Below the pieces are notes generated by a model. The model worked only from the letters and a program-made list of their open reading frames with translations. It had not been told where the DNA came from and ran no database searches. Positions 4,505 to 18,930 of a stretch of DNA of 32,817 nt are shown here, piece after piece. The stretch is from NCBI GenBank assembly GCA_030656035.1, contig JAUSOK010000115.1, forward strand, positions 1-32,817. Direction: 5' to 3'. The position numbers were made by a program, and so were the translations under genes. How positions within the stretch are numbered: the first letter of the stretch is position 1; each line of letters starts with the position of its first letter. The DNA comes from Syntrophales bacterium (GTDB lineage Bacteria > Desulfobacterota > Syntrophia > Syntrophales > Fen-1087).

Positions 4505-7500
4505 TTATGCGTTTTTCAGGGATGTCCCATTTTTTTCAAGGGTTGATTTGATCTGGCCGGCGACGATTTCGACGGGCTCGCTGAAGAGCGCCTCCAGCGA
4601 AATGGACTCCAGATAGCGGTCGTCCCAGGGAAGGTTGTATTCATTGATGAGATTGCGAAGGTCATTAAACCGGTAGCCCAGTACGGCGATTTTTTCCGGC
4701 CGGCTCAGGGACTCATTGTAGCGGATGTGAATCAGCAGCAGATTTTTGACGCCTGCGCCTTCTCCAAGCAGCGGAACGATCATGATCGGCGCCCCGTCCG
4801 TCTTGCCGCGGCCCAGATAAACATGGCCCGTGCCGACAATGGTTTTTTTTGCCCCCATGAGCAGGTTGGCCTGTTCCACGCGCGATTTCATCTGCAGCGC
4901 AATCCCGCCCCGTTGCCGGATGGTGATTGTGGAAGCGTCCTGGGGGTTGCCCTCCTGGTCCAGGTTATTGACGGCGTACAGGGTGTAGCCCCGGATCGCC
5001 GCGATGGCCGGCTGAACATTTCTGATGGCCAGGACGTTTCTGCCGGTAAGCAGCCTGAGAGAAACGCCCAATTCCTTCAGCAGTTCAAACACCATGCCCT
5101 CCAAGGGCTGTTCCTTGCGGCTGGTTCCCACCGTCACCGTCTTTGCCTGATGACGGATCGTGTCGATCGGTCTCGACAACTCATCGATGGCGTGACCGAG
5201 GCAGGTATCCAGACGGTCAATGGGAGAGAGGGTTTCATCCCGGAAATCCTGCCAGAAGTCTTCGAGGGGGATCTTGCCGACGGCATATTTCAACAGCAGC
5301 ACAAGCTCGGAGATCGTGCCGACGCCGGACAATGAAAAACCGCCGCCGGCCAGCCGCTCGTGCAGGGACGTTGAAAAATCTCTGATCATCTTGCGGAATT
5401 GCCTGTCTGCAATCTTTTCGTAAAATGATGCCTGATGCCTGCCCGCGTCGGTGACGGTCAGGTTCAGGCGGCTCCGGAACTCCCGGAAGAACAGGGCTTC
5501 CTCGTCTATGCTGCAGGCCGCATAATAGCCCCAGAGGTGGCCGGCCACGGTATTGAGAATGACCGGCAGGGGCATAGGGGCCCGCGGAATGGCGATCACG
5601 GCATCGGCAATGGGGTCGAAACGCGCCTCGTCTTCATCGGCAAAAACGATGACGCCCGCTTTATGCGCCTTGAAGATGGCCACATCCTTGACAATGTCGC
5701 CCGTGACCGCTTCCGGGGCGCCGGCGGCGCAGACAAGGATAAGGGGCTCCGCCGACAGATCGATGTGCTTCTTGTTTTCCACCACGTCGGAGGAGATGGT
5801 CTTGTAACAGAGTTCGCTGAGCTTGATCCGGATTTCATCGGCGGCCGCCTTGTTGGGTCCGCTACCGACAACAGCCCAATATTTTTTTTGTCCGGCGCAA
5901 TCCCGGACGGACTGGCGGATCTTTTCCTTTTGCTCCAGGACCCGTTGCATCAACGCCGGCGCCTGCTCCAGGTTCTCTAGTTCCGCGGCGATCTCTTCGT
6001 CGGGAAGCGTTTTCAGCATCTGGGCAAGATATAGGGACAGAATATGCCCGGCGATGATCTGGGAATAGAAAGCCTTCGTGGAGGCCACGGACATTTCGAT
6101 ATCCCGGCCGTCGCTGGTGTAAAAAACGCCGTCCGACTTGCCGGTGATATCGGACTGACGCCGGTTCACAATGGCGATGATCGCTGCGCCGCGTTGTGCG
6201 GCCATCGCCACGGCGCGGTTCGTGTCCGTGGTAGTGCCGGATTGCGTGATCGGAATGATCAGCGTGTCCTGCAGGCCCTCCTGCAGATGAAAGCCGCTCA
6301 GTTCCGAGGCGATTTTCGCTTCGATCCTGATCCGCGCGCCGCGGAGATACCGCTCCAGGGCGTCCGATACGGCGGCGCCCGCCACCGCCGCCGTGCCGTG
6401 GCCGATGACCACCACGCGGCGGATCTCGTCGCGCACCAGGGCCAGACGGACTTTTTCCGGAACGATATCCGGGCCGAGATTGAAACGGACCTGCTTTGTC
6501 CCGTCTTTTTCCTTTATAATCCGGTATTTGCCAAGAATGGTCTTGTGCACGGAAAGGGCGGATTCGCTGATCTCCTTGAGAAAGAAATGGGGGTAGGCGC
6601 CGCGGTCAATATCCCGCGTCGTCATCTCGGCCTGCTGGATATCCGCCGCCCGCCACGCCAGCGGCAACCCATTGTAGTAAAATGATTTTATCCCGGGAAG
6701 GCCTCCCCCGGAATTTTGATCCAGGATCACGATCTGACCGGCGGACTCGGAATCGCCGGGAATAGAGGGCTTTTCGCCGTCCATCTTGATGAAAGCGGAC
6801 GTTTCTTCCACGAGGCCGTAGAGCTCCGAGGAGAAGACATACCGGTCGGGCGCCAGACCTACATAGATCGTCTGGCCGCTGCCTTTCAGGGCGAGGAAGG
6901 TCCGGGACGGCTCCAGAGAGCTCGTCATGGCGATGGCGTGCGATCCTTCAAAGTCGCAGACGGCGCGCCGGAAGGACTCCGTCAGGTCGTTTCCTTCCCG
7001 AAGATATTTTTCGATCTGCAGGGGGATGATCTTCGTGTCCGTGCTTACTTCCGGAACGAACAACTCGCGTCCGGCTTCGAACTGCCGGCGCAGAAGCTGG
7101 TAATTGTCGATATCGCCGTTAAGGACCACGCTGATCGTCCCGTCCCCTTCGCCGTAGGCCGGATAGCGCCGGATGCCTTTATTGAGCGTGTGATTGTTGA
7201 TGGGATGGCAATTGTCCTCGGTAATGGAACCGACCGACGCCCAGCGTGTGTGGGCCAGCGTCGTCCCGAAGGCGGCCCCTTTGACGGCAAATTCGCGAAA
7301 GACGGCATCCTGCGCCACAGCCTTTCGCAATTCCCGGATATTCCGGCCCAGTTCGCCGACAATCGAAGCGGTTTTATAGGTAAAGGATAAAAAGGGCCGG
7401 GCTTCCGAGCATTCAATGGAACCGTTGATCAGATCGCCGGCGGCCGTTCTCTGTCTGAAATCATCATGGAGCCCCCTTTCCCTGAGCCGCGCGAGGACAT

Positions 7501-8242
7501 CCGCAAGGTCTCGGGAAGCGGTCAGGGTGAAGGAAATCTGGATTCCGGCCGAATCCCGTCCCCGGACTTCGAGGCGATCGAGACCGTTCAGCAGAAAGTT
7601 GATTTTTCTGTATTTTCTGAAGGATTCCGGCGCCAGATCTTCCGGCTTTTCGGAACCGGCGAGCCTGAGAATCCCGCCGATATTATCCAGAATGTCCTTT
7701 TCCAGAGCCCAGCAGACATCCTTCATGCGGGTCAGACGGCTGTTGATGATTTCCAGATCGCCCGTCGAAAAACGGGCGGCCCGGCTTTCCAGGGCAAATT
7801 GTTCTTCCGCAAGGAAAGCGTTCATCTTTTTTGAGAGAGCCGTCAAATATGCGGCTTCCCGGGGGTCATAAAAAAGACGCTCGAAAGGTTCATTCCACTT
7901 TAAGACCGAAATCCACTGTTCCAGGGCGGCAAGCGTATCCGGTCCATCCAGATACCGCCCCGATGAAATGGCGCCGTCGATGATTTTGCTTATATCCTCG
8001 CGATGGATGATTTTGAACAGGGCGTCCATGTGCTTGCCAGGATCGTCGCACTCCGGCTGCTCAACACGTTTGACGGTCAGGATGCCTGCCAGTCCGCAGC
8101 ACAGGATATTGCTCCGGCAGGGGAACAGGACCAAGGCCGGGGCGGTGGCCCGTTCAGGATCGACGCCCGCATAAATATTCCAACATCTTGAAATCTTCAA
8201 CAGCCGGACGCCGTATTTTTTGACCATTTCGATCGAATTCAT
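4505..8242 (-). CDS. GlmS-like glutamine amidotransferase/SIS-domain protein, greatly enlarged
   Basis: 1245 residues, about twice normal GlmS. Seen in order: an extension (1-48); a class II amidotransferase start C-C-G-L-A-G-I-L (48-55); an inserted helical segment (about 65-220); the rest of the amidotransferase domain with RGRDSAG (227-233), AHTRWASVG (330-338) and NGDIDNY (375-381); SIS domain 1 with TQSGTTTDT (666-674) and VASTKAF near 735; SIS domain 2 (about 790-940); and a carboxy-terminal extension of about 300 residues without a recognised domain. SIS2 lacks the usual GELKHGPLAL stretch, reading VVENKKHID instead, and the standard KSVTVE terminus is absent. GlmS makes glucosamine-6-phosphate from fructose-6-phosphate and glutamine; whether this homologue does so is uncertain. 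The candidate nucleophile C49 is internal, so maturation would need propeptide removal, as in PurF or GltB precursors. No good Shine-Dalgarno precedes the ATG at 8242; an ATG five codons later is an alternative. Confidence 0.8.
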   Translation of the reverse strand: MNSIEMVKKYGVRLLKISRCWNIYAGVDPERATAPALVLFPCRSNILCCGLAGILTVKRVEQPECDDPGKHMDALFKIIHREDISKIIDGAISSGRYLDGPDTLAALEQWISVLKWNEPFERLFYDPREAAYLTALSKKMNAFLAEEQFALESRAARFSTGDLEIINSRLTRMKDVCWALEKDILDNIGGILRLAGSEKPEDLAPESFRKYRKINFLLNGLDRLEVRGRDSAGIQISFTLTASRDLADVLARLRERGLHDDFRQRTAAGDLINGSIECSEARPFLSFTYKTASIVGELGRNIRELRKAVAQDAVFREFAVKGAAFGTTLAHTRWASVGSITEDNCHPINNHTLNKGIRRYPAYGEGDGTISVVLNGDIDNYQLLRRQFEAGRELFVPEVSTDTKIIPLQIEKYLREGNDLTESFRRAVCDFEGSHAIAMTSSLEPSRTFLALKGSGQTIYVGLAPDRYVFSSELYGLVEETSAFIKMDGEKPSIPGDSESAGQIVILDQNSGGGLPGIKSFYYNGLPLAWRAADIQQAEMTTRDIDRGAYPHFFLKEISESALSVHKTILGKYRIIKEKDGTKQVRFNLGPDIVPEKVRLALVRDEIRRVVVIGHGTAAVAGAAVSDALERYLRGARIRIEAKIASELSGFHLQEGLQDTLIIPITQSGTTTDTNRAVAMAAQRGAAIIAIVNRRQSDITGKSDGVFYTSDGRDIEMSVASTKAFYSQIIAGHILSLYLAQMLKTLPDEEIAAELENLEQAPALMQRVLEQKEKIRQSVRDCAGQKKYWAVVGSGPNKAAADEIRIKLSELCYKTISSDVVENKKHIDLSAEPLILVCAAGAPEAVTGDIVKDVAIFKAHKAGVIVFADEDEARFDPIADAVIAIPRAPMPLPVILNTVAGHLWGYYAACSIDEEALFFREFRSRLNLTVTDAGRHQASFYEKIADRQFRKMIRDFSTSLHERLAGGGFSLSGVGTISELVLLLKYAVGKIPLEDFWQDFRDETLSPIDRLDTCLGHAIDELSRPIDTIRHQAKTVTVGTSRKEQPLEGMVFELLKELGVSLRLLTGRNVLAIRNVQPAIAAIRGYTLYAVNNLDQEGNPQDASTITIRQRGGIALQMKSRVEQANLLMGAKKTIVGTGHVYLGRGKTDGAPIMIVPLLGEGAGVKNLLLIHIRYNESLSRPEKIAVLGYRFNDLRNLINEYNLPWDDRYLESISLEALFSEPVEIVAGQIKSTLEKNGTSLKNA

Positions 8243-8298: not shown

Positions 8299-8364
8299 GG
8301 GAAAATGGGGACAGCGCCCCTATTTTCGCCCTCGGAAAATAGGGGCGCTGTCCCTAATTTTCCC
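8299..8364. repeat. Long REP-like hairpin of the GGGACAGCGCCCC type
   Basis: The arm 8299-8327 is the reverse complement of 8335-8364 except for one inserted T and one A/G change, with a 7-base loop. The core reads GGGACAGCGCCCCTATTTTC. Such GGGACA-type palindromes recur in many deltaproteobacterial genomes and resemble REP sequences linked to REP-associated tyrosine transposases; that link is inference. It lies between the Fis-like gene and the GlmS-like gene on the minus strand and could also stop or stabilise transcripts. Confidence 0.75.
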
Positions 8365-8405: not shown

Positions 8406-8711
8406 TCATCGGCTATTTTCTTCATCCAGTTCCAATTTGGCCATCTTTTTCTGAAATGTATTCCGGTTGATTCCCAGGTAGGCGGCCGCTGCGGATTTCA
8501 CATGATTGCAGCGTTTCAGGGCGATTTTAAACAGGCTTCTTTCCACCATATAAATCACATCTTCATAGATCCTGCTTTTTTTCCCACCGGAGGAACACAG
8601 CAATGTGGAGATATCTTCGAGTTTTTTTTCAAGGATATCTTCTGCAATGGAAGAGACGGTTTTGCTCTTGGCCTTTTCTGTCAAAGGCGTTTGTGAAGGC
8701 ATTTTAGTCAT
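8406..8711 (-). CDS. Small Fis-type helix-turn-helix DNA-binding protein
   Basis: 101 residues from the ATG at 8711. The carboxy-terminal part is a Fis/NtrC-type DNA-binding domain: ALKRCNHVKSAAAAYLGI (64-81) followed by NRNTFQKKMAKLEL, matching the Fis pattern of a helix, a turn at LGIN and a basic recognition helix. The amino-terminal part (about 20-60) could form the dimerising helices. The frame stays open upstream to 8816, but that would overlap the preceding gene; a GGGGGGGAG ribosome-binding tract upstream favours 8711, with 8702 as an alternative. Fis-like proteins bend DNA and regulate transcription; the target is unknown. It follows the PH-domain gene by 47 bp and is probably co-transcribed with it. 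It could be a stand-alone relic of an NtrC-type regulator. Confidence 0.8.
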   Translation of the reverse strand: MTKMPSQTPLTEKAKSKTVSSIAEDILEKKLEDISTLLCSSGGKKSRIYEDVIYMVERSLFKIALKRCNHVKSAAAAYLGINRNTFQKKMAKLELDEENSR

Positions 8712-8758
8712 GGATAAGGTTTTCTCCCCCCCCTCCGCTTTCCTTTGCTGCAGCCTGG

Positions 8759-9277
8759 TCAAATGGATGACAGTTTTAAAATGATCAGGCCGGAAATGAT
8801 CACCACAGCGAACCACAGGGAAATCACGTCCGCCCGGTTTCTAACGGGTCTTTCTGCCTGGGCGCGGACTTCCTCCTCCACTTTCTCCGGGCCGACCTGA
8901 GCGACGATGTTGCGGATGAGGGCGGAAAAATCCTCATAGGCGTTCGACAGGATAATAAATCCCCTGGTCGTGGTCAGCAGCAGATAGACCCTTTTACGCA
9001 GGATCACACAACCCGCATGATTGATCTCGTCCCGATGGATCTCCTTTGTCCTGAAAAACTTTCTGATGACGATTCCCTGATCTGTTATCGTGATCCTGCG
9101 GTCCCAGGCAATTAGAAAGAAGGCGATCGTGATCAGGGTGATCGCAACAAGAAAAACCCGTTCCAGGGCGGACCCATTTCCCAGCAGGGCCAGGATCAGC
9201 AGGCACAACAGCAGTCCTGCGCTGATCCCGAAGGGAATCAGGATATCCCGCCGGATTTTAAATATTTGTGCAGTCAT
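8759..9277 (-). CDS. Bacterial PH-like domain membrane protein
   Basis: 172 residues with three predicted membrane segments: about 13-32, 41-58 and, near the end, 152-169. Between them, residues about 60-130 form a strand-rich stretch (ITITDQGIVIRKFFRTKEIHR, then VYLLLTTTRGFIILS) typical of bacterial PH-like domains in small membrane proteins. The biochemical role is unknown. The start ATG at 9277 has no strong ribosome-binding site; it is 27 bp after the moaC stop, so translation may depend on the operon. The stop is 47 bp before the Fis-like start. The domain call comes from the alternation of a two-helix anchor and the hydrophobic strand pattern, and is moderately sure. Confidence 0.7.
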   Translation of the reverse strand: MTAQIFKIRRDILIPFGISAGLLLCLLILALLGNGSALERVFLVAITLITIAFFLIAWDRRITITDQGIVIRKFFRTKEIHRDEINHAGCVILRKRVYLLLTTTRGFIILSNAYEDFSALIRNIVAQVGPEKVEEEVRAQAERPVRNRADVISLWFAVVIISGLIILKLSSI

Positions 9278-13750: not shown

Positions 13751-16700
13751 ATGACAGTTTCCCAATACGGTTATCTCTTTGAGGCCAGCTGGGAGGTCTG
13801 CAACAAAGGCGGGGGGATCTATACGGTCATCACCAGCAAGCTCCGGGAAGCCCTGGCGGTCTATGGCGACCGGTATTTTCTGCTGGGACCGGATCTGAAA
13901 ACGAATCTGGAATTTGAGGAAACCGATGAGGCCTGCTGGGCAAAGATACGGGAGGGGACGGCAATTCAGGAGCTCCCCTGCCGTTTCGGTCGGTGGAAGA
14001 TTCCCGGCGAACCCAAGGTTGTCCTCGTTGGTTTTGGAAAAAAATATAACAAGGATCAGCTCCTTTACCGGATCTGGGAGGACTACGGCGTCGATTCCAT
14101 CGCCGGCGGCTGGGACTATGTGGAGCCGGTCATGTTCAGTTATGCCTGCGGCGAAGTCATCGCGACCATCTACAATCTGCTGGCCCGGCCGCAGGGAGAG
14201 CCGGCGGTCGCCCAGTTTCATGAATGGATGTGCGGAGCGGGCCTGCTGGCTCTGAAAAAGAAAGCCCCCGAAATCGGGACCGTTTTTACCACGCATGCGA
14301 CGATCCTGGGGAGATGCCTGGCCGGAGCGGGAATGGACATTTATACCGCCATGGAGAACATCGCACCGCAGCGGGAGGCAAGCGCCCATAACATCGCGGC
14401 GAAATATTCCATGGAGACGGCCGCCGCGCGGGAAGCCGACTGTTTTACCACGGTCAGTGAGATTACAGCGGCAGAGGCCAAAAACTTCCTCGGCCGCTGT
14501 CCCGATGTCATTACGCCCAACGGACTGGATCTCGAACATGTGCCGGATCTGACCCAAAACCGCGACCCGGCGTTGAAATCCCGGGAAAAGCTGCTTGCCG
14601 CGGCCACCCGCTTTCTCAGGAAGGACTTCCCCGCAAACACGAAAATAGTGGTCATTTCCGGTCGTTATGAATTCCGCAACAAGGGGGTGGATGTTTTTCT
14701 GAAAGCCCTGGGCCGCCTCGACAAAGAGATCGCTGAAAACCAGACAGTCCTGGCCTTTCTCTTTGTCATCGGCGGACACACGGACCTGATTCCCGCGCTG
14801 CAGGGAGATTACAGCAAATGGGAGCCCGGGAATCCGCCCATTTCGACCCACCGCCTCCAGAATGAGGCGTCCGATCCTATCCTGCAGACCTGCAACCGCG
14901 TGGGACTTAAAAATCTGCCGCAGAACCGGGTGCATGTAATCTTCAGCCCCGCCTATCTGAACGGCCACGATGGCCTGATCAACATGACCTACTATGAAGC
15001 GCTGTCCGGGTGTGATCTGGGCGTTTTTCCCTCCTACTACGAACCCTGGGGCTATACCCCCCTGGAAAGCGTAGCCTATGCGGTTCCTACGGTCACCACG
15101 GATCAGGCCGGATTCGGCCTGTGGGTGAGGGATACAGGCGGCGCCGACGGCGGCGTCATTCTGTTAAACCGCAGAGGGCAGCCGATCCGGCTCATTGAGG
15201 ACCACCTTCATGACATCTTTGCAGATTTTATCCACTGGGAAGACGCCGAGCTCAACAAGCGACGCAAAGCAGCACGAACCATCGCCCTCAAGGCCAACTG
15301 GAAAGATTTTTTTCAGAGCTATTTACTGGCCTATGAAAAGGCACGCCTTGCAGCCGATGATCGCTCGAAAAAACTGGCCCTGGCCGAGGTAAAATATACC
15401 TTTGCCGGAACGGCTTCCACCCAGCCGCACTTCCGGACATTCACGGCAGTAGCCACCCTGCCGGACAGGATTTCCCGGCTTCGGGAACTTGCCTACAACC
15501 TGTGGTGGACCTGGCATCCGAAAGCCCTGGATCTTTATGCATCGCTCGATCCGAGAATCTGGTCGCAAATGAACAACAATCCCGTCATGATGCTGGAGAC
15601 ACTCTCTCCCGAATGCCTCCTGGAGGCGTCGGAAAACCAGAGCTACATGAACCTCTATGAACAGGTCATGAAGCGCTTCGATGACTATCTGAATGACCGC
15701 GAACCGCCGAAGAATTCTGAATTTTCCACGGATATCAAATGGTCGTCGCCGATTGCCTATTTTTCAGCAGAGTACGGGCTTCATGAGTGCCTGCCTATTT
15801 ATTCAGGAGGCCTTGGCACGCTGTCCGGCGATCACCTGAAGACGGCCAGCGACATCAATCTGCCGCTTGTCGGCGTCGGTTTGCTCTACAAAAACGGCTA
15901 TTTCAAGCAGGTCATTGATAAAAACGGCTTGCAGATAGCGGAGTACCCGGAAAACGATTTTTCCAATATGCCCGTACAGATTGTCCGGGACGACCGCGGC
16001 AAAGAGGTGCAGATCTCTCTGGAGCTGCCGGGGCGGACCCTTTATGCCAATATCTGGGAAGTCAAGGTCGGCCGCGTCACCCTTTATCTTCTGGATTCCG
16101 ATGTGCCGGGAAATACGCTGCAGGACCGGAGAATCACGTCCCGGCTCTACAGCGCCGATCAGCGGACCCGCATTGAACAGGAGATTCTGCTCGGGATGGG
16201 CGGGGTCCGGCTGTTGAATCGGCTGGGAATCAAGCCGCGCGTTTATCACATCAACGAAGGCCATTCGGCCTTTCTGCTGTTTGAACTGATCGCCGAACGC
16301 ATGACGGCCGACGGGCTCTCTTTTGAGGAGGCCAGCGAGGTCGTCCGCGGCAGCGCGGTTTTCACCACCCACACCCCGGTGGAGGCGGGCAACGAACGCT
16401 TTACCAGGGACCTGATGGAACATTACTTCTGCAGTTTCGTCAACTGGTCGGGGATGTCCTGGTCGCAGTTCTGGGAATCGGGCCTGAAGGAAAGCGGCGA
16501 CGACAAACCGTTTTTTATGAACATCCTGGCATTCAAACTCACGCATCGGCGCAATGCCGTGAGCCGCGTCCATGGGCAGCTTGCCCGCCACATGTGGCGC
16601 GACGTCTGGAAGGGCTATAATGACGACGACATCCCCATCCGACATGTGACCAACGGCTCCCATATCCTGTCCTACCTGGCGCCGCGCATGAAAGAACTCC

Positions 16701-17995
16701 TGGACACCTACCTGGGCATGAACTGGGAAGGGCGCCTGACGGACACGGAGCGCTGGAAACGGGTCCACGACATCCCGGACATCCTTTTGTGGCGGACCCG
16801 TCATGAAATCAAACAGCGGACCATCGATCTGCTCCGGGATTATCTGTCCCGCAGTTGGTCCAAATACGGTTACTCCAAGGACTGGCGGGAGGAGCTTTAT
16901 TCGCGCATCAATCCGGCGGCCCTGTTGATCGGCTTCTCGCGGCGGTTTGCCCCGTACAAGCGGGCGAACATGCTTCTGTCCGACCTGGACCGCCTGGCCC
17001 GGATCGTCAACCATGAAACCCGGCCGGTGCATATCGTTTTTGCCGGCAAGGCGCATCCCAATGACGAGATCGGGAAAAGCATTCTCAAACAGGTGCTTGA
17101 CGCTTGCAAGGATGAACGTTTCCGGGGACGGATTTTCTTCATCGAGAACTATGATATCCGCATCGCCCGGCATTTAGTTCAGGGCGTGGATGTCTGGATC
17201 AACACCCCCCGCCGGCCCTACGAGGCGAGCGGCACCAGTGGCATCAAGGTGGTGGCCAACGGGGTTCTCAACCTCAGCGTCTCCGACGGCTGGTGGTGTG
17301 AAGGCTATGACGGCGCCAACGGCTGGACCATCGGACCGGTCCTGCGGAATTATTCCGCCGAGACTGAAAATGCCGATGAAGAAGACACCCAGTCTCTTTA
17401 TGCGCTGTTGGAAAACACCGTCGTCCCGCTGTTCTACGACCGCCAGGGATCGGGCATTCCGGAGAAGTGGATTGCCATGATCAAACGGTCGATGGAAAGC
17501 ATCATCCCCCGATTCAATACGGAACGGATGCTGATGGAATACTATCAGGGGATGTATCTGCCCACTGCAATCAGGACGCAGGAACTCACCCGGGACGATT
17601 TTGTGATGGCCAGGGCGCTGGCCGACTGGAAACGGAAGATCCCCATGCGTTTCTCTTCCGTCAAGCTGCTGGACGTAACCGTCGAAGGGATTCATGGCGA
17701 TAACATCCCCGTGAACGAATCCCTGAAGCTGACCGCGCGGGTTGATCCGGGCAAGATTGAACCCCACGAGATTATGGTGGAACTGGTTATCGGCCGCAGG
17801 GACGGGCAGGACAATGTAGCCCATACGGAATATCTGCCGATGCGCATCGCAAACAAAGGCGCGGACGGGATTCTCACTTTTTCCGTTGAATACTTCATCC
17901 GGGAAAACGGACCGTACAGTTACGGCCTGCGGGTCCTGCCGTATAATGAAAAACTGGCATCCAGGCAGGAAACAGGATTGGTCCTGTGGGGATAA
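13751..17995 (+). CDS. Bifunctional GT3-type glycogen synthase / GT35 alpha-glucan phosphorylase fusion
   Basis: 1414 residues; GAGGAGG lies 7-8 bp before the ATG. Residues about 1-540 form a GT3-like glycogen synthase: LFEASWEVCNKGGGIYTVI (9-27), QFHEWMCGAGL (155-165), TTHATILGR, TTVSEITAAEA, TPNGLDL and YEPWGYTPLESVAYAVPTVTT. That pattern is nearer fungal/animal GT3 synthases than bacterial GlgA (GT5). Residues about 560-690 are the phosphorylase front domain (LRELAYNLWWTWHPKA). The GT35 part follows: YFSAEYGLHECLPIYSGGLG, INEGHSAF (834-841), TTHTPVEAGNERF, and EASGTSGIK with the PLP lysine at K1166. Residues about 1300-1414 may form a small beta domain. The first half would extend glucan from a nucleotide sugar; the second would release glucose-1-phosphate with phosphate. 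Having both in one chain is odd and suggests tight coupling of storage and use. Such fusions are, to my knowledge, annotated in other deltaproteobacteria. Confidence 0.9.
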   Translation: MTVSQYGYLFEASWEVCNKGGGIYTVITSKLREALAVYGDRYFLLGPDLKTNLEFEETDEACWAKIREGTAIQELPCRFGRWKIPGEPKVVLVGFGKKYNKDQLLYRIWEDYGVDSIAGGWDYVEPVMFSYACGEVIATIYNLLARPQGEPAVAQFHEWMCGAGLLALKKKAPEIGTVFTTHATILGRCLAGAGMDIYTAMENIAPQREASAHNIAAKYSMETAAAREADCFTTVSEITAAEAKNFLGRCPDVITPNGLDLEHVPDLTQNRDPALKSREKLLAAATRFLRKDFPANTKIVVISGRYEFRNKGVDVFLKALGRLDKEIAENQTVLAFLFVIGGHTDLIPALQGDYSKWEPGNPPISTHRLQNEASDPILQTCNRVGLKNLPQNRVHVIFSPAYLNGHDGLINMTYYEALSGCDLGVFPSYYEPWGYTPLESVAYAVPTVTTDQAGFGLWVRDTGGADGGVILLNRRGQPIRLIEDHLHDIFADFIHWEDAELNKRRKAARTIALKANWKDFFQSYLLAYEKARLAADDRSKKLALAEVKYTFAGTASTQPHFRTFTAVATLPDRISRLRELAYNLWWTWHPKALDLYASLDPRIWSQMNNNPVMMLETLSPECLLEASENQSYMNLYEQVMKRFDDYLNDREPPKNSEFSTDIKWSSPIAYFSAEYGLHECLPIYSGGLGTLSGDHLKTASDINLPLVGVGLLYKNGYFKQVIDKNGLQIAEYPENDFSNMPVQIVRDDRGKEVQISLELPGRTLYANIWEVKVGRVTLYLLDSDVPGNTLQDRRITSRLYSADQRTRIEQEILLGMGGVRLLNRLGIKPRVYHINEGHSAFLLFELIAERMTADGLSFEEASEVVRGSAVFTTHTPVEAGNERFTRDLMEHYFCSFVNWSGMSWSQFWESGLKESGDDKPFFMNILAFKLTHRRNAVSRVHGQLARHMWRDVWKGYNDDDIPIRHVTNGSHILSYLAPRMKELLDTYLGMNWEGRLTDTERWKRVHDIPDILLWRTRHEIKQRTIDLLRDYLSRSWSKYGYSKDWREELYSRINPAALLIGFSRRFAPYKRANMLLSDLDRLARIVNHETRPVHIVFAGKAHPNDEIGKSILKQVLDACKDERFRGRIFFIENYDIRIARHLVQGVDVWINTPRRPYEASGTSGIKVVANGVLNLSVSDGWWCEGYDGANGWTIGPVLRNYSAETENADEEDTQSLYALLENTVVPLFYDRQGSGIPEKWIAMIKRSMESIIPRFNTERMLMEYYQGMYLPTAIRTQELTRDDFVMARALADWKRKIPMRFSSVKLLDVTVEGIHGDNIPVNESLKLTARVDPGKIEPHEIMVELVIGRRDGQDNVAHTEYLPMRIANKGADGILTFSVEYFIRENGPYSYGLRVLPYNEKLASRQETGLVLWG

Positions 17996-18171
17996 CCGGG
18001 AAATCGTCCCTAAACGAGACCGGCAAGCAGTCCCCTGGCCCGCGCAAACGAGAAAAGAGCAACGGCGAGGAAACATTGCTGCCATGCGGCAGGCCGTCGG
18101 CGAAGGGCCAACACAGGCCGCATCAGATTTCGTGGCGGAAAAACATTGACATTCATCGCTGAATCTTTTAG

Positions 18172-18930
18172 TTAAACAGGGCGCGGGCGGGACTCAGGGC
18201 GTGAAATTTTTTGCGTCTCCGCCTGAAACAGGGTTCCAAGCGTTCGGTGATCCTGGTTCGTCCTCTTGGCGAGGGCCAGCATGATGTATCGGCAGCACAC
18301 CACGGTGGCGTGGGCGACAAGCGCGTCATAGGATCGCCCCTGGCATTCTTTAGCAAGGTTGAGAAACGACTTGGCCATCTTGAAAAATACCTCGATGTCC
18401 CATCTTCGTTTGTAGACCGTGACGATCTCCTCGTCGCCCAAGGCGATATCGGTGGACAGCAGGGCCAGCCACTTTTTGCTGCGCCTGTCCCGGACGAACA
18501 CGATCTTTGCCGACACAGGAACCCCCTTGTCATCCTCGCCGATCTCGACCATGACCGAGGCGAGAATCTTGGCGCGGCCTCGCCGCTTGCGGATCTTCCT
18601 GTAGATGGCCGCCAGATGGAGATCTTCTCCCTGGTAGCGATAGAAGATCTTTTCCGTGACCTTGAGCATGCAGATGGTATGCACCCCCTTCGCGAGCAAC
18701 TTCCTCATGGTTGCGGGAAAGGCAAACCAGCTGTCGAACAGAAGGTGACTGGCTTGAATCCCGCTTGCGACGGCCTCGGCCACCATCTCGACAAGAACAT
18801 CGGTTGCCTTGCGGATGCCTTCCCGGCGACGCATCGCTCCGTTGGTGCGACGGTCAAGGATCTGCCCGCGCCACATTTCTTCCGCTGAGCGGGCTGAAGG
18901 GATTTCTGATTCCGAGTCAAACCATTCCAT
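18172..18930 (-). pseudogene. IS4-family transposase remnant, amino-terminal half missing
   Basis: 252 residues remain of a transposase usually above 400. The second catalytic Asp is present (D66 in SHLLFDSWFAF), as is the IS4 YREK signature: Y173, R176, E180 and K187 with exact Y-2-R-3-E-6-K spacing. The segment carrying the first catalytic Asp is absent. On its own strand, the DNA before the ATG at 18930 is the leader of the DUF1846 gene, so the 5' part is deleted rather than out of frame. No terminal inverted repeats were found. The element is presumably immobile. The 176 bp between it and the glycogen fusion gene (17996-18171) hold nothing I can identify. Confidence 0.82.

Follow-up and report, generated by a model that had tools for sequence, protein, structure and literature searches.

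A GlmS-like protein with an internal putative nucleophile

Few enzymes of central metabolism are as uniform as glucosamine-6-phosphate synthase (GlmS), which makes the amino sugar for cell walls and is a drug target. Class II amidotransferases, to which its glutaminase half belongs, require a free α-amino group on the nucleophile cysteine. A 32,817-nucleotide stretch from a Syntrophales bacterium (assembly GCA_030656035.1, contig JAUSOK010000115.1, positions 1 to 32,817; hereafter the window) encodes a GlmS-like protein of 1245 amino acids in which the candidate nucleophile, C49, comes only after 48 residues, and the question is how such a protein could work. The analysis makes it likely that this large GlmS is the cell's glucosamine-6-phosphate synthase and that it is matured by removal of the 48-residue prosegment.

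The open reading frame (ORF) is real, and large GlmS proteins like its product form a conserved family; because more than 60 homologous loci have its features in common, chance is excluded as their origin. Pfam matches in the protein were to GATase_6/7 and SIS, and the helical insert at about residues 67-205 had no Pfam match. The parts of the gene and the evidence for each are as follows.

4505..8242, minus strand: gene of the large GlmS-type protein P0001, 1245 amino acids, from the ATG at 8242 to the stop ending at 4505 (homologues)
8099..8242, minus strand: N-terminal prosegment, residues 1-48 (conservation, ratio of nonsynonymous to synonymous polymorphism [pN/pS], structure prediction)
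8096..8098, minus strand: C49, the GlmS Cys1 equivalent and glutaminase nucleophile (invariant in alignments)
7628..8044, minus strand: ~140-150 helical residues (about 67-205) inserted after the nucleophile strand and ahead of RGRDSAG (predicted structure)
6749..8098, minus strand: glutaminase domain (class II, N-terminal nucleophile type), residues 49-498, with inserts (Pfam, alignment, model against 1xff)
6008..6610, minus strand: SIS1 of the isomerase domain, about residues 545-745 (Pfam SIS, 7.5e-15; alignment)
5507..5920, minus strand: SIS2 of the isomerase domain, about residues 775-912, with K807, E810, K825 and H826 (alignment, structure)
5183..5506, minus strand: helical insert of ~110 residues (about 912-1020), between SIS2 and the catalytic tail (alignment, model)
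5129..5182, minus strand: GlmS catalytic C-tail, residues 1021-1038 (PIDTIRHQAKTVTVGTSR), in which K1034 is GlmS K603 (alignment)
4508..5128, minus strand: C-terminal extension of ~207 residues, mixed alpha/beta (model; without known family match)

The prosegment is conserved and under selection

C49 sits within the motif CCGLAGIL, and the preceding codon is TGC, which is not a start codon, exactly as a first-pass annotation of the sequence had remarked. Ahead of the cysteine, the sequences of 60 non-redundant members align ungapped over 28 positions, with G at -23 in 54, P at -16 in 39, F at -9 in 57 and P at -8 in 59 of them, and a hydrophobic residue at -2. The pN/pS of the prosegment was 0.42, compared with 0.43 for the following 60 codons at the start of the enzyme, and this equality indicates that the prosegment is translated and under selection. 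Structure prediction gave a helix at residues 3-20, with low confidence (41-70). An alternative start right before the cysteine was ruled out, since no prosegment-bearing member has ATG, GTG or TTG at codon -1 and only two members have CTG there. A lipoprotein signal was set aside by eye, the stretch preceding the cysteine containing charged and polar residues.

Some members of the family have no prosegment; in these, an ATG stands immediately before the cysteine and the enzyme is kept (L012, L056 and L057; L022 and L079; L049; L089-L092). On the tree, three changes between presence and absence of the prosegment are needed, all forced by well-supported branches, and on at least two occasions the Met-Cys-Gly starters are nested within clades that bear the prosegment. 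Most simply, the common ancestor of the main clades gained it once and two losses followed, a reading of counts that cannot themselves separate gain from loss. A start codon exactly before the cysteine upon loss of the prosegment is what is expected if the mature cysteine must be N-terminal.

In human GFAT-1, removal of the initiator methionine frees the nucleophile cysteine (PMC7000685), and in PurF of many organisms a propeptide is removed autocatalytically, exposing the cysteine (PMC7056826; PMC3261824). By analogy, removal as in PurF appears to be the best explanation of the N-terminal piece. The proposal of a propeptide-processed enzyme, made in the first-pass annotation, which also suggested checking C49 and the extension in homologues, appears well supported at the sequence level: C49 proved invariant, the prosegment is conserved under purifying selection, and Met-Cys members without it exist. 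Neither a propeptide-bearing GlmS nor GlmS in Syntrophus was described in openly searchable papers, with subscription papers and preprints lying outside the reach of that search.

Catalytic residues of both domains are kept

The window protein and 35 relatives were aligned with E. coli GlmS (MG1655 record). The glutaminase residues C1, R26, R73, W74, H86, N98, G99 and D123 correspond to C49, R227, R333, W334, H346, N375, G376 and D402, and across the large-GlmS members C49 is invariant and the other positions are near-invariant. The isomerase residues T302, Q348, S349, T352, S401, K403, E481, K485, E488, K503 and H504 are all kept. Within the isomerase, the catalytic set K485, E488, H504 and tail K603 is aligned with K807, E810, H826 and K1034; its counterparts in human GFAT-1, K558, E561, H577 and K676, are described as catalytically relevant, with conservation extending from E. 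coli to humans (PMC7000685). The tail lysine is K in 36/36 aligned sequences and invariant among 30 sequences, and the E. coli C-tail VDQPRNLAKSVTV corresponds to PIDTIRHQAKTVTV at residues 1021-1038 of large GlmS. By sequence, the closest solved structures are E. coli GlmS and human GFAT.

This alignment also settled what had been said of the unusual segments. The claim of about 150 residues inserted ahead of RGRDSAG held, as C49 and R227 (GlmS R26) are 178 residues apart compared with 25 in E. coli, or ~153 extra. The GELKHGPLAL stretch of SIS2, reported as missing, does differ, reading VVENKKHIDLS here, yet the catalytic Lys-His pair within it, K503-H504, persists as K825-H826. The supposed ~300 terminal residues of unknown fold turned out to include the catalytic C-tail, which had been overlooked because the ~110-residue insert shifts it downstream; the insert and the last ~207 residues are truly additional. 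Loss of the catalytic lysine, suggested by post-SIS2 sequence unlike GlmS, was likewise ruled out, the C-tail motif lying ~110 residues downstream.

Predicted structure and the added parts

A model of residues 46-1245 was obtained with a mean predicted local distance difference test score (pLDDT) of 80.9 and a predicted template modelling score of 0.68. In the overlay on E. coli GlmS that the first-pass annotation had called for, VIA-align matched model residues 3-990 to 594 of the 608 residues in 1jxa (Z 38.5), good coverage in the comparison being confined to residues 4-990 of the model. The root-mean-square deviation was 6.8 across the two domains and 2.3-2.7 Å for isolated isomerase domains. 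The model glutaminase domain matched 1xff with Z 29.7 and 1.7 Å over 237 residues, and a separate model of residues 1-560 had the GlmS glutaminase as its best match. The structural alignment stops at the tail lysine, at most one residue from the sequence alignment, where local pLDDT is under 50.

In the model, long helices form a bundle in the first insert, at about 67-205 (pLDDT about 90); the second, at about 912-1020, is likewise helical, and the last ~207 residues have a mixed alpha/beta fold. Searches of Pfam and of PDB sequences with an alignment of the C-terminal extension gave nothing significant. Compared by hhalign with 19 GAF domains of relatives, it scored 20.3 (probability 2.6%, 18 columns), with shuffled controls scoring up to 15.6; its strand pattern is suggestive only. 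The extension was also considered as the missing GlmU acetyltransferase and rejected, because a separate GlmU C-half protein adjoins the gene in relatives. Assembly or regulation is the probable role of the helical insert and the C-terminal domain.

Large GlmS replaces ordinary GlmS

The source genome (91% complete) contains no GlmS besides the large form, which answers the suggestion that a normal glmS be looked for. Across 41 genomes of the order Syntrophales, ordinary GlmS above cut-off was found in 0/41, whereas the large form was matched in 38/41, a few of the matches being fragments at contig ends. In a phylum sample of 297 genomes, and at the thresholds used, 234 had ordinary GlmS, 37 the large form, 1 both and about 27 neither. 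Co-occurrence of the two forms was thus observed once against 29 cases expected under independence (hypergeometric 5e-28, a value that overstates exclusivity because genomes are related). Four further genomes reached through the loci, one of them labelled Myxococcota, have the large form only. Family f54 includes genomes with ordinary and genomes with large GlmS, which argues that the swap occurred more than once or that the gene moved.

The sole sampled genome with both forms, G220 (locus L093), is a good case for recent gene transfer. Separately, the genome of L022 carries, besides large GlmS, a 1517-amino-acid open frame with a weak match to the GlmS isomerase domain (G334:C623).

Genomic context and the UDP-N-acetylglucosamine pathway

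In relatives, large GlmS is often preceded by a protein of ~415-430 amino acids matching the C-terminal acetyltransferase half of GlmU (5.7e-12). At locus L007 this protein is encoded at 5171-6412, and CTP synthase and GlmM follow large GlmS; glmM is near large GlmS in some relatives. Within the order, GlmU is cut down to the uridyltransferase half in 38/41 genomes (frames of about 250-330 amino acids), and the acetyltransferase-half protein is present in 36/41. The source genome has GlmM, and on its contig C93 the acetyltransferase-half gene (G000:C93:11470-12669) adjoins glmM and an enlarged NagB-like gene; the uridyltransferase half was not found in this incomplete genome. GlmU appears to be split in this order into uridyltransferase and acetyltransferase-half proteins. 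Strict coupling of split GlmU to large GlmS was unsupported, as genomes with ordinary GlmS can likewise have a split or short GlmU.

The enlarged NagB-like protein beside glmM (G000:C93:9078-9959; L021:6743-7738) has about 320-350 amino acids, with ~40-50 residues inserted mid-domain, and gives a two-piece match to glucosamine-6-phosphate deaminase that is below cut-off. NagB-type proteins occur in 14/41 genomes of the order, too patchily for a general source of glucosamine-6-phosphate.

Comparison with known systems

Large GlmS has the domain order of GlmS/GFAT (TIGR01135; 1jxa, 2j6h, 6r4e), namely class II glutaminase, SIS1, SIS2 and catalytic tail. The likeness extends to the catalytic residues, the predicted core fold and the gene context, and the occurrence of the two forms is mutually exclusive. 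Large GlmS differs in its size (1245 amino acids compared with ~610, at about 20-25% identity), its prosegment, its helical inserts of ~150 and ~110 residues and its C-terminal extension of ~207 residues. NagB-II/AgaS/FrlB-type SIS isomerases-deaminases (8eol, 8fdb) have the same two-SIS fold, with Z of about 26-30 against the model, but are without a glutaminase domain.

For the prosegment, the nearest parallels are found in other class II glutaminases. PurF of the Bacillus type and Arabidopsis GPRAT2 are made with a propeptide whose removal exposes the cysteine and, as with large GlmS, some members of the PurF family bear a propeptide and others start with Met-Cys; PurF differs in serving purine synthesis and in its phosphoribosyltransferase domain. 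In bacterial PurF the propeptide runs to no more than about 11 residues, whereas the prosegment of large GlmS has ~45-50 residues with a strong conserved motif. The propeptide of GltB, the large subunit of glutamate synthase, is of similar length (about 36-42 residues), a likeness drawn without sequence comparison, and GltB has an unrelated synthase domain.

Proposed maturation and alternative explanations

From the conservation, selection, replacement of ordinary GlmS, genomic context and predicted core fold, we infer the following course of cleavage and catalysis, the cleavage by analogy with PurF. Large GlmS would be made as a precursor in which the 48-residue prosegment docks in a fixed register ahead of the nucleophile strand. 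Cleavage, in which the precursor most likely acts on itself, would fall between C48 and C49 and liberate the α-amino group of C49. In the mature enzyme, glutamine would be hydrolysed at C49 and the ammonia passed to the two-SIS isomerase domain, where fructose-6-phosphate would be converted to glucosamine-6-phosphate via K807, E810, H826 and the tail lysine K1034. Several observations weigh against this account. The protein scored 244.8 bits with TIGR01135, the GlmS family model, below the cut-off of 418.05 bits, for which reason its architecture is classed as divergent and the protein is not counted among ordinary GlmS; a second GlmS family model gave 270 bits, below its cut-off of 381, though both matches are strong. 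Pocket-lining positions are changed in nearly all large-GlmS members (T76S, H77V, H97L, S303A, E351T), so substrate handling could differ in detail. The residue at position -1 is not constant (C in 32, F in 11, N in 6 and other residues in the rest, n=60) and bears no processing signature, the tree behind the counts was built quickly and has its outgroup on an extremely long branch, and three nearly complete genomes of the order (G006, G007, G019) have neither form of GlmS. Of these, G007 and G019 carry the enlarged NagB-like protein.

The family-model scores, S303A, E351T and the altered SIS2 loop would also suit a GlmS-derived protein with another product, as a deaminase or other amino-sugar synthase, with glucosamine-6-phosphate supplied, for example, by reversed NagB; the order does have enlarged NagB-like proteins, one adjoining glmM in the source genome. 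This alternative, which the first-pass annotation had raised as a new role, is nevertheless very improbable, because the full K485/E488/H504/K603 set and the catalytic residues of the glutaminase are kept, large GlmS occurs in 38/41 genomes as against 14/41 for NagB-type proteins and 0/41 for ordinary GlmS, and genes for UDP-N-acetylglucosamine synthesis are neighbours of large GlmS. Catalytic residues, fold, replacement of ordinary GlmS and gene neighbours together make the large form most likely a working glucosamine-6-phosphate synthase. The glutaminase pocket bears on whether the prosegment might stay on, leaving a glutaminase that is inactive or regulatory and an isomerase that uses free ammonia, possibly plentiful for such anaerobes. 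Cleavage is argued from analogy, and E. coli PurF without its cysteine is still active with ammonia (PMC3261824). We nonetheless regard a retained prosegment as quite unlikely, since selection would not preserve C49 and the near-invariant R26, R73, W74, H86, N98, G99 and D123 of an unused site, and related members begin with Met-Cys.

If the prosegment is removed, the agent could instead be a separate host protease, for which the conserved P-8/F-9 at a fixed distance from the cut could serve as a recognition element. The wide variation at -1 and the autocatalytic precedent of PurF (PMC7056826) speak against it, and no candidate protease turned up beside the gene, though none was sought; we consider a host protease improbable. 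An artefact of sequencing or assembly that masks a normal Met-Cys-Gly start would be conceivable in a fragmented draft genome (209 contigs), but the prosegment is common to 60 non-redundant members and under selection, which refutes this explanation and excludes the frameshift considered in the first-pass annotation. Self-cleavage may, in turn, mean more than the removal of a disposable leader. As a rather speculative extension, the prosegment could be a maturation switch controlling the supply of cell-wall precursors, in which the docking motif and the frequent cysteine at -1 beside the nucleophile cysteine would keep the first enzyme of UDP-N-acetylglucosamine synthesis inactive until self-cleavage is permitted by a signal (redox state, or a ligand of the C-terminal domain). 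If so, GlmS activation would be a control point in these anaerobes.

Other features of the window

An upstream ORF on the same strand as large GlmS recurs beside the gene at 8 loci, and its counterpart at L007 encodes a Fis-type helix-turn-helix (HTH_8) protein.

8406..8816, minus strand: upstream ORF (recurrence beside large GlmS)

Just upstream of large GlmS, at 8299-8363, lies an inverted repeat with 29-nucleotide arms, 90% complementary, and a 7-nucleotide loop, suggestive of either a terminator or a palindromic mobile element. Farther along the window, a 1414-amino-acid ORF at 13751-17995 has a fused architecture: its C-terminal part, from residue ~569, matches alpha-glucan/maltodextrin phosphorylase (2.6e-244), and residues 418-511 give weak glycogen-synthase and glycosyltransferase matches. 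An IS4-family transposase at 18171-18930 is apparently partial (profile positions 174-390 of 449).

Significance

In sequence and in predicted structure, large GlmS looks like a divergent variant of a known enzyme that resembles working GlmS in function and in build. A double-length GlmS with a probable propeptide has taken over throughout the order Syntrophales, and other lineages within the phylum have it too. Because the curated cut-off makes these genomes look as if they had no glmS, the large family accounts for what seemed a gap in their cell-wall biosynthesis. Its members with and without the prosegment constitute a natural experiment on the gain and loss of propeptides in class II amidotransferases.

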